Notes: generated from the letters alone by a model not told the origin. 64,000 nucleotides of DNA from Ignavibacteriales bacterium (GCA_015709675.1 CP054182.1:1281448-1345447), one strand, 5' to 3'; counted from the first letter of the stretch, positions 55,940 through 64,000 are shown. Translations and numbers: made by a program.

Positions 55940-56353
55940 ATGAGGAAAATTTTATCACCGGAGCCGCTGATGCAGGATTTTGGTTTGCTGATCGCCAGAG
56001 TCTGGCTTGGCATTACCTTTATCATATTTCACGGATATAAGAAAATTATCAACCCTGGCGGATGGGAGAAACTGGGTTCAAATATGGCTCATCTGGGGCT
56101 GGATTTTGCCCCGACATTCTGGGGTTTTATGGCGGCTTTTACAGAATCCTTCGGGGCTCTCTTTCTGATGCTGGGGTTATTTACCAGACCGGTCTCCGGA
56201 CTGCTTGCCTTTACCATGCTGGTTGCCACCCTGAAGCATGTTATGGCTGAGGAAAAGTATTCCTATCCTTTGGAAATGATGGCGGTTTTTCTTCTGATTG
56301 CATTTCTTGGGGCGGGACGCTACAGTCTGGATCAACTACTCTTCCGGAAATGA
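55940..56353 (+). CDS. DoxX-family membrane protein
   Basis: 137 residues with four membrane helices (LLIARVWLGITFIIFHGYKK, FWGFMAAFTESFGALFLMLG, PVSGLLAFTMLVATLKHV, PLEMMAVFLLIAFLGAGRYSLD). RVWLGITFIIFHGYKKI and the ending GAGRYSLDQLL fit the DoxX/DoxD family. Members take part in thiosulfate oxidation, redox stress response or unknown membrane functions. AGGAGG lies nine bases before the ATG, a strong ribosome site. The gene stands alone and is followed by a strong hairpin. Confidence 0.88.
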   Translation: MRKILSPEPLMQDFGLLIARVWLGITFIIFHGYKKIINPGGWEKLGSNMAHLGLDFAPTFWGFMAAFTESFGALFLMLGLFTRPVSGLLAFTMLVATLKHVMAEEKYSYPLEMMAVFLLIAFLGAGRYSLDQLLFRK

Positions 56354-60721: not shown

Positions 60722-60934
60722 ATGCTGCTGTGCTTTCTCATACTTAAAAGATGACCAGGAGGAGGAAAAGTTGCCACTAATGAAAAATTTTTTCTGAATA
60801 ATGATAAAAATAGGCAGATAAGAGAAAAAACAGAGAGATAAACGCTGAAAATGAATAAAAAACGGGGCATCCGGCATAGTTATGGATGGCACAAATGTTG
60901 ATAGCCATAAATATAGGTTTGAAGGAAACAATCA

Positions 60935-61384
60935 ATGCACACTGAAAACGATTCGATTTATTCAATAGGTACAGCAGCCAGACTAACCGGAATAAGCGTC
61001 CACACACTCAGACTATATGAGCGGGAGGGGCTTGTAAGGCCGGTAAAATCCTCAGGCAATCAGCGGCTATACTCGGACAGTGATATTGAACGCATCCGGT
61101 GCATCCGGGACGCGATTAATTCCGAAAAAATAAGCATTGCCGGAATCCGCCATATTCATGGAATGATACCCTGCTGGAAGATTAAGAACTGCCCTGATGA
61201 GCAGAGAATCGTTTGTAAGGCATTTACCGGAAACGGCAACGGCGGCTGCTGGACATATGAGCATGAGGGAAACGTCTGCAGCACCAGTGAGTGCCGCGAG
61301 TGCCCCGTCTATCAGTTCTCAAGCAACTGCAAATCAGTAAAGCTGCTTGTTACCGGAAACTATTCTGAATTACAAAACATCTGA
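60935..61384 (+). CDS. MerR-family regulator with Cys-rich C-terminus
   Basis: 149 residues. The N-terminal MerR DNA-binding domain (IGTAARLTGISVHTLRLYEREGLVRPVKSSGNQRLYSDSDIERI) is complete. The C-terminal half carries nine Cys: CWKIKNC, C, CW, C, C, CRECPVY, C. This resembles the two-CW type domain of some signalling proteins and could bind a metal or iron-sulfur cluster. It is divergent from the ECF sigma gene and 32 bases before the octaheme cytochrome gene, so it probably controls that cluster in response to redox state or a sulfur compound (inference). Confidence 0.88.
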   Translation: MHTENDSIYSIGTAARLTGISVHTLRLYEREGLVRPVKSSGNQRLYSDSDIERIRCIRDAINSEKISIAGIRHIHGMIPCWKIKNCPDEQRIVCKAFTGNGNGGCWTYEHEGNVCSTSECRECPVYQFSSNCKSVKLLVTGNYSELQNI

Positions 61385-61416
61385 TATATAAAAAGCAGAC
61401 AACGGACTAAACCACC

Positions 61417-63030
61417 ATGAAAAAGATACTGCTTTCAGTTCTCGTGCTTGCACTGGGAACGTTTCTGATACTCAATCTCCTGATCGGAAAGAATGAGTTT
61501 CAGAATAACCTCCCCGAACTGAAAGAAAAATTCGCGAAAAAAGAAAAAACCTCAGCCGATCACACCAAATTCACTCAGCTTCAGAAAGATTTTACGCGCC
61601 CGCAGGAAGTTACCGCGGCATGCATCTCCTGCCACAATGAACGGCATACAGAAGTGATGCAGACCTCCCACTGGAACTGGGAACGGACAGAATATATACC
61701 AGGAAAAGGAATTAAGCGCGTCGGAAAGAAAAATATCCTCAATAATTTCTGTATCGGTATAGCAGGCAACGAACAGAGCTGCAACAAATGCCACATCGGT
61801 TACGGCTGGAATGAACCGGATTTCGATTTTAAGGATCCTACCAATGTTGACTGCCTTGCCTGTCATGATAACAGCAATGAATATATGAAGCAAAACAGCG
61901 GAGCGGGCATGCCTGATCCTTCTGTTAACCTTGCTTTTGTGGCGCAGCGCGTGGGGAAACCTCAGCGTGAAAACTGCGGTACCTGCCACTTCCTTGGCGG
62001 CGGCGGTAACAACGTTAAACACGGTGATCTTGAAACCGAGTTGTTCGCCACTACCAGGGATATTGACGTGCACATGGGTATTGATGCCAGCAATCTGAGC
62101 TGTGTTGACTGCCATACCGCGGAAAACCATCAGATGAAAGGAAAGGTTTTTTCACTTTCATCAATGAATAAAGACAGGTCAGAGTGCGAAACGTGTCATT
62201 CCAATCTGCCGCATGAAAACCCGGTTCTGAATGAACATACGCAGAAAGTTGCCTGCCAGACCTGCCATATACCCCTCTATGCAAAGGCTAATCCTACCAA
62301 GATGACCTGGGACTGGTCAACCGCCGGAAAACTTAAGGATGGCAAGCCCTATGTTGAGCTTGATGAATTCGGCAAAGAGGCATATACCAGTCTGAAGGGA
62401 AATTTTACCTGGGCGAAGAATGTTGAACCGGAGTATATATGGTTCAACGGAACCGCTTCACACTATCTGCTGGGTGATACTCTTGATCCCGGTCAGACAC
62501 TGCAGCTTAACCGGCTCTACGGAAGTTATAATGACCCGATGGCTAAAATTATTCCGGTTAAGATACACCGTGCCAAGCAGATTTATGATGCGGAACATAA
62601 ATATCTCATTCAGCCAAAGACAGTTTCAAACTTTGAAGGAGACGGCGGTTTCTGGAGAGAATTTGACTGGAACAGAGCTTCTGAAGAAGGCATGAAACGG
62701 CTAAACCTGCCGTATAGCGGCAGCTACGACTTTGTAAAAACAGAAATGACCTGGCCTCTGAACCACATGGTTGCGCCTAAAGAGCAGTCACTTGCATGTG
62801 CTGACTGCCACACCCGTGAAAACAGCAGACTTGCATCACTGACTGACTTCTATCTGCCGGGAAGAGATTACTCCCCCGCGGTTGATACTCTGGGAGCAGG
62901 TGTTATTTTCTTTACGGCTCTTGGCATTATTACTCACGCTGTCGCCCGCATTATGAAGTGGAGAAAGAAGAAGGAAGGGAACAAAGTGGCAGCAGAAAAA
63001 AATGAGGAGCAGGAAAATGAAAAGTCATAA
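61417..63030 (+). CDS. Octaheme c-type cytochrome, tetrathionate reductase family
   Basis: 537 residues. An N-terminal anchor (LSVLVLALGTFLILNLL), eight CxxCH heme motifs (CISCH, CNKCH, CLACH, CGTCH, CVDCH, CETCH, CQTCH, CADCH) and a C-terminal membrane helix (LGAGVIFFTALGIITHAVARIM) with a charged tail. The heme count and spacing match the octaheme tetrathionate reductase (OTR) family, whose Shewanella member reduces tetrathionate, nitrite and hydroxylamine. The natural substrate here is inferred to be a sulfur oxyanion from the neighbours. It overlaps the cytochrome b gene by 14 bases. Confidence 0.92.
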   Translation: MKKILLSVLVLALGTFLILNLLIGKNEFQNNLPELKEKFAKKEKTSADHTKFTQLQKDFTRPQEVTAACISCHNERHTEVMQTSHWNWERTEYIPGKGIKRVGKKNILNNFCIGIAGNEQSCNKCHIGYGWNEPDFDFKDPTNVDCLACHDNSNEYMKQNSGAGMPDPSVNLAFVAQRVGKPQRENCGTCHFLGGGGNNVKHGDLETELFATTRDIDVHMGIDASNLSCVDCHTAENHQMKGKVFSLSSMNKDRSECETCHSNLPHENPVLNEHTQKVACQTCHIPLYAKANPTKMTWDWSTAGKLKDGKPYVELDEFGKEAYTSLKGNFTWAKNVEPEYIWFNGTASHYLLGDTLDPGQTLQLNRLYGSYNDPMAKIIPVKIHRAKQIYDAEHKYLIQPKTVSNFEGDGGFWREFDWNRASEEGMKRLNLPYSGSYDFVKTEMTWPLNHMVAPKEQSLACADCHTRENSRLASLTDFYLPGRDYSPAVDTLGAGVIFFTALGIITHAVARIMKWRKKKEGNKVAAEKNEEQENEKS

Positions 63031-63715
63031 GAAAAAAGAAAAGGTTTATGTATATCGTTCATATGAACGGTTCTGGCACTGGACCCAGGCGCTGCTGATG
63101 ATTATTCTGATGGTTACCGGGTTTGAAATCCACGGCAATATATCATTCTTCGGATTTGAATATGCGGTCTCCATACACAGCACTTCGGCAATAATACTGG
63201 TGGTGCTTACGGTATTCACTATCTTCTGGCATCTGAGCACCGGTGAGTGGAGGCAGTATATACCCACGCGGCAGAATATTAAAGCACAGCTTCATTATTA
63301 CGTATTCGGTATCTTTGAAGATGCCCCGCATCCGTTCCGCAAGACCAAACTGAGCAAGCTGAATCCTTTGCAGAAGCTGGTTTATGCAGGTCTGAAGGTG
63401 TTTATCATTCCCCTGATGATACTTACGGGACTTGCGTATATGTATTACCGCTACCCTCATTATAACAAAATCGCTCAGCTTAATATAGCCGGCCTGAAAG
63501 TAATTGCACTTCTGCATACGTTCGGTGCCTTTCTTTTGGTTGCGTTTTTCCTGGCTCATTTATATCTGATGACAACAGGCGAAACGGTTACCTCCAATCT
63601 GAAGGCGATGGTTACCGGTTATGAAGAGCTTGAAACGGACGAGAGCAAAGAAGACAAACATGTGATTATTTCTGAAAAGCAGGAGACGCTTTCAGAGAAA
63701 GAAGCAGTATCATGA
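63017..63715 (+). CDS. Membrane cytochrome b (b561 / thiosulfate reductase type)
   Basis: 232 residues from the ATG at 63017; AGGAG lies ten bases upstream, while the ATG at 63002 lacks one. Four membrane helices: FWHWTQALLMIILMVTGFEI, HSTSAIILVVLTVFTIFWH, VFIIPLMILTGLAYMYY and ALLHTFGAFLLVAFFLAHLYL. Conserved His in RFWHWTQ, VSIHSTS, LLHTFGA and AHLYLMTTG fit heme b ligands of the FdnI/PhsC class. It should pass quinol electrons to the octaheme cytochrome. A C-terminal charged tail extends about 40 residues. It overlaps the next gene by four bases. Confidence 0.9.
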   Translation: MKSHKKKEKVYVYRSYERFWHWTQALLMIILMVTGFEIHGNISFFGFEYAVSIHSTSAIILVVLTVFTIFWHLSTGEWRQYIPTRQNIKAQLHYYVFGIFEDAPHPFRKTKLSKLNPLQKLVYAGLKVFIIPLMILTGLAYMYYRYPHYNKIAQLNIAGLKVIALLHTFGAFLLVAFFLAHLYLMTTGETVTSNLKAMVTGYEELETDESKEDKHVIISEKQETLSEKEAVS

Positions 63716-64000
63716 AAACAAAATACATGAATCCTTATCTGGCAGGATTTCTTCTCGGACTCCTGCTCATCGGAACATTTTATATATCAGGCCGCGGACT
63801 TGGCGCAAGCGGGGCAATCAAGGCAGTAACCGTTCATACGGTAAATGTGGTTGCGCCTGAACACTCACAGGGAAACGGATTTTACGCGGCATTCAACTCA
63901 TCCCGTGCCGGCAACCCGCTGCGAGACTGGCTGGTTCTGGAAGTATTCGGCGTTATTATCGGTGCATTCATTTCGGGACTGATCTCTGACCGGCTGAAAT
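63712..64000 (+). CDS. YeeE/YedE-family transporter, 3' end outside window
   Basis: The ATG at 63712 overlaps the stop of the cytochrome b gene (ATGA). 96 residues are visible: a membrane helix (YLAGFLLGLLLIGTFYISG), the GRGLGASGAIKAV block, and the WLVLEVFGVIIGAFISGLISDRL helix, all typical of YeeE/YedE (DUF395) proteins. Members include the thiosulfate permease TsuA and selenium-linked proteins. Its place after the octaheme cytochrome and cytochrome b suggests uptake of thiosulfate or release of a product. Confidence 0.88.
   Translation, partial: MKTKYMNPYLAGFLLGLLLIGTFYISGRGLGASGAIKAVTVHTVNVVAPEHSQGNGFYAAFNSSRAGNPLRDWLVLEVFGVIIGAFISGLISDRLK

Follow-up and report, generated by a model that had tools for sequence, protein, structure and literature searches.

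OTR-family octaheme cytochromes are widespread, but whether they act physiologically on sulfur or on nitrogen compounds is disputed. An OTR protein lies beside a membrane cytochrome b561, with a proposed link to quinol, in Ignavibacteriae Ch128a (PMC7509429) and in Thermosulfurimonas dismutans (PMC4911364). Among sulfur transporters, a split YedE1E2 pair has been reported to import zero-valent sulfur (PMC10812762), and in Desulfurivibrio dismutans a periplasmic Psr operon, a triple-rhodanese lipoprotein and YeeE/YedE were proposed to cooperate (PMC12142623). Here we analyse an operon at the end of a 64,000-nucleotide stretch (the window; CP054182.1, positions 1281448-1345447) of the complete, 4.21-Mb genome of an Ignavibacteriales bacterium (Ignavibacteria). 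It encodes a Cys-rich MerR regulator, an OTR cytochrome, a cytochrome b561 and two half-size YeeE proteins, the second fused to a rhodanese-like domain. The accessible text of the Ch128a and T. dismutans reports mentions no merR, YeeE pair, Cys-tipped rhodanese, operator or replacement by Psr genes; that of the D. dismutans report describes no Cys-tipped tail or merR cassette and places the YeeE genes at other loci.

Operon and flanking features, in order, are as follows.
60887-60916, plus strand: conserved promoter/operator, TGGCACAAATGTTGATAGCCATAAATATAG, with sigma-54-like -24 (TGGCA) and -12 (TTG) elements and, after them, an imperfect dyad
60935-61384, plus strand: Cys-rich MerR-family regulator, 149 amino acids (aa), with a C-terminal domain of eight conserved Cys and two CW motifs
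61417-63030, plus strand: OTR-family octaheme cytochrome, 537 aa (TIGR04315, 603.5 bits), with eight CXXCH motifs and N- and C-terminal membrane anchors
63017-63715, plus strand: cytochrome b561 or PhsC-like quinol-side subunit, 232 aa, ATG at 63017 (PF01292, 95.5 bits)
63712-64000 in the window, ending at 64224, plus strand: YEE1, the first half-size YeeE/YedE protein (Sulf_transp, PF04143), 170 aa
64234-65421 (L002:10234-11421), outside the window: YEE2 fused to a rhodanese-like domain, 395 aa, ending in -KKVKGGC

A first reading of the window (hereafter the original prediction) had described merR, OTR, cytochrome b and YeeE as four genes packed on one strand, and open reading frame (ORF) calls recovered all four in that order. 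The overlaps it gave were also recovered, of 14 bases between OTR and cytochrome b (63017-63030) and of 4 bases between cytochrome b and YeeE (63712-63715); merR and OTR are separated by a 32-base gap. We consider it somewhat more probable than otherwise that the whole is an operon for the respiration and uptake of inorganic sulfur with a tethered sulfur carrier.

A cysteine-tipped rhodanese-like domain

The original prediction named a rhodanese or TusA as genes to look for past position 64000, and a rhodanese-like domain makes up the C-terminal 170 residues of YEE2, in the next gene. We compared 127 domains of this kind (126 clusters at 95% identity, 70 at 60%). All 127 carry a Cys within the last three residues, mostly as -GGC, or as -EGC in the Psr cassettes of Ignavibacteria. 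The tail before this tip is rich in Lys and Arg (median 6 of the last 20 residues) and varies in other respects. The catalytic Cys is replaced by Ser (63), Ala (36), Gly (25) or Asp (1) in 125 domains and retained in 2; in 105 of the 127, the tip Cys is the only Cys of the domain. A chance origin of the GGC tip was rejected, as, of the 1439 remaining ORFs in these loci, none ends in GGC and 33 have any Cys within the last four residues.

Separate copies of the domain match PF00581 with 51-62 bits (cut-off 22.2). The fused form has a rhodanese fold by Foldseek, with top matches almost all to rhodanese domains; the fused copy of the window's own lineage gave no Pfam rhodanese match at E 0.01. 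The AlphaFold model of YEE2 is poor in the membrane part and was used for the rhodanese domain alone, which has a predicted local distance difference test (pLDDT) score of about 70-86, falling below 50 at residues 386-395. Such a low-confidence tail is as expected of a flexible arm. Judged by net charge around the preceding transmembrane (TM) segment, the domain is more likely to lie outside the cytoplasm in 48 of 57 fused copies and in 37 of 44 separate ones, and lipoproteins bearing the same tip point to the same location.

An invariant tip Cys on a domain that has lost its catalytic Cys looks like a swinging-arm sulfur carrier, so far unrecognised, by analogy with SoxY or DsrC. SoxY ends in GGCGG, and DsrC has a C-terminal arm with a penultimate Cys; the domains described here would have in common with both a flexible arm at the C-terminus whose tip bears an invariant Cys beside Gly. 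Unlike either, the putative carrier is a membrane-tethered, rhodanese-like domain of unrelated fold without its catalytic Cys. We consider this the simplest reading of a tip Cys that never varies, on a rhodanese without catalytic function whose neighbouring transporter has conserved cysteines of its own. Full-text literature searches, with most subscription papers beyond their reach, returned no description of a Cys-tipped rhodanese. The broader proposal is a new class of membrane-tethered sulfur carrier with a rhodanese fold, in which the reactive Cys no longer sits in the catalytic loop but at the tip of a C-terminal swinging arm, and which is the common link between a split YeeE and interchangeable, non-homologous sulfur reductases under one Cys-rich MerR. 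We hold it tentatively, at slightly less than an even chance; if true, such a carrier would join periplasmic sulfur respiration to sulfur import.

The terminal Cys might instead be a fixed attachment, either tethering the domain to YeeE or the reductase through a disulfide or ligating a metal or heme, with the rhodanese domain as a structural subunit. Retention of the tail whatever the reductase, even with none nearby, would agree with this, as would the absence of the catalytic Cys in 125 of 127 domains, and a GGC tip may be chemically inactive. However, tail length and sequence vary while the tip G-C is fixed, which suits a movable arm, and rhodanese-type partners in Bacteroidales that have an intact catalytic Cys bear the same tip. 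We therefore regard fixed attachment as unlikely, although it is the alternative that we take most seriously.

Several cassettes depart from the common form. Four in Bacteroidales (L123, L129, L137 and L140) encode three GGC-tipped proteins of rhodanese type: a double-rhodanese lipoprotein with an intact catalytic Cys, a YEE2 fusion and a small anchored protein. Six others (L126, L127, L131, L132, L133 and L155) combine YEE1, YEE2 and a rhodanese ending in -GGCE, with no reductase in the vicinity; genes for a small related protein and a divergent double rhodanese come next. In the Psr cassette of genome G002, the rhodanese gene (L270:6448-7100) is frameshifted, with the tail -KKKKREGC readable in another frame.

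YEE1 and YEE2 both match Sulf_transp (PF04143; 74.8 and 61.6 bits, cut-off 27) and are the only such pair in the genome. The permease had been predicted to be a thiosulfate-type transporter; it proved to be one half of a split pair and not a complete TsuA-type protein, the half-size YeeE scoring below the equivalog cut-offs of the TsuA models NF052577 (45.7 against 400 bits) and NF041049 (24.4 against 645 bits). As in YedE1E2, PmpA/PmpB and TsuA, the PF04143 halves have channel-type Cys motifs, and the pair is split as in YedE1E2; unlike TsuA and its kin, it lies far below the TsuA cut-offs and its second half is fused to, or adjoins, a Cys-tipped rhodanese-like domain. YEE1 C131 is invariant (100/100) and aligns with the Cys of the GGCNIG motif in the solved thiosulfate transporter TsuA, and YEE2 C107 is present in 103 of 104 sequences. 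One TusA-type frame lies elsewhere in the genome.

A selenium-linked transporter had been named as evidence that would speak against a sulfur role. A system for selenium or tellurium oxyanions, built on the selenium subgroup of YedE, is scarcely credible and the least probable of the explanations weighed here. YEE2 is weakly similar to seleno_YedE, and, in a relative, one cytochrome gene linked to the operator is similar to ExtM (252 bits, cut-off 800). But the YedE selenium transporter model TIGR04112 reached 37 bits against an equivalog cut-off of 200, every selenium model run against proteins of the cassette fell far below cut-off, and the genes found in association (DsrC, DsrE2, sulfide:quinone reductase (SQR) and PhsA) belong to sulfur metabolism.

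Exchange of the reductase module

Neighbourhoods were collected around OTR and, independently, around YEE1 from named genomes. The order OTR, cytochrome b, YEE1 and YEE2 with rhodanese is the rule for OTR proteins of ~525 residues with a C-terminal anchor, and merR heads many of these cassettes; OTR proteins of ~460 residues mostly lack YeeE. Gene order, whose conservation the original prediction had proposed to check, is kept in Ignavibacteria, other Bacteroidota and Acidobacteriota, among soil and sediment bacteria, and supports one conserved operon with a membrane-anchored OTR and a quinol-type cytochrome b. In the closest named relative, a metagenome-assembled genome of Ignavibacteriaceae, YEE1 is 95% identical.

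In other loci, a different module of three genes stands before YEE1, behind merR where merR is present: a PhsA/PsrA-type molybdoenzyme, a 4Fe-4S protein and an NrfD-type membrane subunit (PF03916). The best model for the molybdoenzyme is thiosulfate reductase PhsA (484 bits, cut-off 694). Hosts of this Psr module are Fidelibacterota (Neomarinimicrobiota), Bacteroidales and many Ignavibacteria. The 125 YEE1 loci divide into 56 with OTR, 56 with Psr and 13 with neither; one locus (L162) has both modules side by side. The YEE1 tree groups the two modules in few blocks, with two changes. In the merR tree, parsimony requires a minimum of 12 switches of the linked module, two to three of them being forced by well-supported branches; L065 (OTR) and L274 (Psr), for example, are sisters. 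The rhodanese is fused to YEE2 in 55 of 56 OTR loci and separate in 55 of 56 Psr loci, a correlation that in part reflects shared ancestry.

This exchange bears on the disputed substrate of OTR. Assignment of the operon to sulfur is by association and is well supported, because the same merR and YeeE/rhodanese genes flank a Phs/Psr-type module and the same merR and operator head SQR-DsrC-DsrE2 clusters. The sharing of regulator, operator and transporter between OTR and Phs/Psr modules, and of regulator and operator with SQR-DsrC, constitutes an independent argument for sulfur as the OTR substrate. The sulfur context of the original prediction is thus borne out by the rhodanese in the next gene and by both of these associations.

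Operator, regulator and proposed mechanism

The operator at 60887-60916 reads TGGCA-N6-TTG followed by an AT-rich dyad, with the best form TTGATATTTATAAATATCAA, and 18 bases separate its 3' end from the start codon of merR. With up to two mismatches allowed, nothing else in the whole genome matches the pattern. In 59 relatives, the pattern gave 54 matches compared with 8 for a reversed control; we consider this a fairer test than a weight matrix, because the matrix was trained on these same sites. Among the cassettes of relatives, the operator precedes merR in those with OTR, Psr and SQR, and is absent from OTR cassettes without merR.

The left part of the operator has the sigma-54 spacing GG-N10-G, which becomes GG-N10-GC in several Neomarinimicrobiota copies, and the consensus TGGCAC-N5-TTGC is perfect in L125. 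In the window, TGGCAC-N5-TTGA scores 12.5 of 14.5, which exceeds the 95% background level but not the 99% level. The genome encodes RpoN, and a simple sigma-70 scan near merR found no promoter. The merR operon is a candidate for sigma-54 control.

Further genes stand behind the operator in relatives. They include merR-SQR-DUF1641-DsrC-DsrE2 clusters (SQR 675 bits, cut-off 525), in which DsrC ends in -PKPKGCI; SQR, DsrC and DsrE2 all belong to sulfur-protein families. DsrC is absent from the genome studied here, so the SQR-DsrC branch is known from relatives only. Also behind the operator are moaA, moaC and a gene for a MobA-like protein, molybdenum-cofactor genes that fit the molybdoenzyme module, together with a Rieske/cytochrome gene pair and a FadL-type outer-membrane protein. 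The last may be a route for substrate through the outer membrane. FadL/TodX-type proteins were seen near OTR cassettes or behind the same operator at L267:1359, L095:5126-6628, L071, L072 and L111.

The regulator belongs to the MerR family (MerR_1, PF13411; 73.2 bits, cut-off 21.6), and its predicted model (pLDDT 86.7) matches CarH, CadR and SoxR in Foldseek (best E 1.6e-3, probability 1.00). The nine Cys of the original prediction are present, at 56, 80, 86, 94, 105, 115, 120, 123 and 132, and two CW motifs are visible; the two-CW domain model of NCBIfam (NF045718) gave 10.1 bits (E 0.81, cut-off 35), which limits the likeness to a resemblance. The eight C-terminal Cys are kept across OTR- and Psr-linked copies with few exceptions, and the domain that they form may sense sulfur or redox state. 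OTR cassettes without merR often have a regulator of ~150 aa, MarR-like in appearance, just upstream (L060, L062, L063, L066, L069, L085, L089, L092, L094 and L097).

From the sequences, we infer the substrate (tetrathionate, thiosulfate or polysulfide), the direction of electron flow and the chemistry of the carrier. The cytochrome b561 subunit would oxidise quinol and pass electrons to the membrane-anchored OTR, which would reduce a periplasmic S-S compound (tetrathionate, thiosulfate or a related one) at its Lys-ligated heme beside Cys64. Sulfane or thiosulfonate sulfur could then be held on the tip Cys of the flexible, Lys-rich tail. The rhodanese-like domain, lacking its catalytic Cys, would act as a tethered swinging arm and pass the sulfur to the channel cysteines of YEE1 and YEE2 (C131/C107) for import. 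The Cys-rich MerR would sense sulfur or redox state and control the operon from 60887-60916, probably with sigma-54.

The same genes could run oxidatively, with sulfide or thiosulfate oxidised, electrons delivered to quinone through cytochrome b and the sulfur formed imported by YeeE. The operator's control of an SQR cluster, with DsrC and DsrE2 often serving sulfur oxidation, is in keeping with this direction. The module partners, however, are of reductase type (PhsA-, NrfD- and PhsC-like) and OTR has been characterised as a reductase; we judge the oxidative direction to be quite improbable.

Several points weigh against the proposed reductive sulfur operon. Placement of the rhodanese-like domain in the periplasm rests on the charge-bias count and the lipoproteins, a cruder topology count having taken no side. 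The -12 element in the window is TTGA rather than TTGC. The Cys-tipped tail is retained in the 13 loci without a nearby reductase gene, and because it persists there, YeeE is a likelier constant partner of the tail than the reductase. Finally, nitrite and hydroxylamine are both reduced in vitro by the OTR of Shewanella, which for nitrite draws its electrons from a periplasmic shuttle (PMC4484225). This last point would fit an ammonifying nitrite/hydroxylamine reductase system with nitrogen compounds as the OTR substrates and the YeeE genes as bystanders. Yet the cassettes contained no recognised nitrogen gene, the regulator and transporter keep company with Phs/Psr and SQR-DsrC-DsrE2 modules, and the genome has a full NrfA (600 bits) elsewhere. 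The original prediction had pointed to downstream genes for nitrogen oxyanions as a sign of such a role, and no nitrogen genes follow the operon. We consider a nitrogen system highly improbable.

The OTR cytochrome and neighbouring genes

The OTR protein falls well within its family (TIGR04315 octaheme_Shew, cut-off 375) and is homologous over its whole length to the Shewanella oneidensis structure (PDB 1SP3; E 7e-142), with which it shares eight CXXCH motifs and N61, C64 and K153 (1SP3 numbering). These are invariant in 76 of 76 OTR homologues, this one included, and N stands in place of D150 in 55 of the 58 YeeE-linked copies. Shewanella OTR is soluble, whereas the protein here is hydrophobic at its N-terminus and has a TM segment (residues 492-510) towards its C-terminus; it comes with a cytochrome b of its own, in an operon that also holds YeeE and merR. 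That cytochrome b matches Ni_hydr_CYTB (PF01292, cut-off 30.1) and reaches 116.7 bits with the PhsC model NF011582, below the equivalog cut-off of 204.

TIGR04315 is present in 42 of 59 near relatives (37 above cut-off) and in 67 of 395 genomes of the phylum (54 above). The second OTR form, of ~460 aa, lacks the C-terminal anchor, cytochrome b and YeeE in eleven loci (L067, L073, L075, L077, L079, L081, L082, L084, L086, L105 and L113), and its context differs from locus to locus. Chlorobi-like genomes have OTR and cytochrome b without YeeE, while L072 and L111 have OTR, YEE1 and YEE2 with rhodanese but no cytochrome b, the tail reading -GGLCS. A plasmid search with OTR outside Bacteroidota returned Paracoccus megaplasmids, with OTR beside suf genes, and one Photobacterium record; the same search with YEE2 gave weak partial matches only. 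These plasmid matches are uninformative for the cassette, because the Paracoccus OTR lacks YeeE and the Photobacterium record is unannotated.

YEE2 is followed by genes for a DUF4440 protein and a GxGYxYP putative glycoside hydrolase, which appear unrelated to the operon. Further downstream, L002:14054-14683 is a spurious-looking ORF of a short repeated unit (FLLTGHPxCGFRV) in repeated DNA. About 5 kb upstream, on the same strand, a DoxX/DoxD-like membrane protein is encoded at 55940-56353 of the window, unlinked to the operon.

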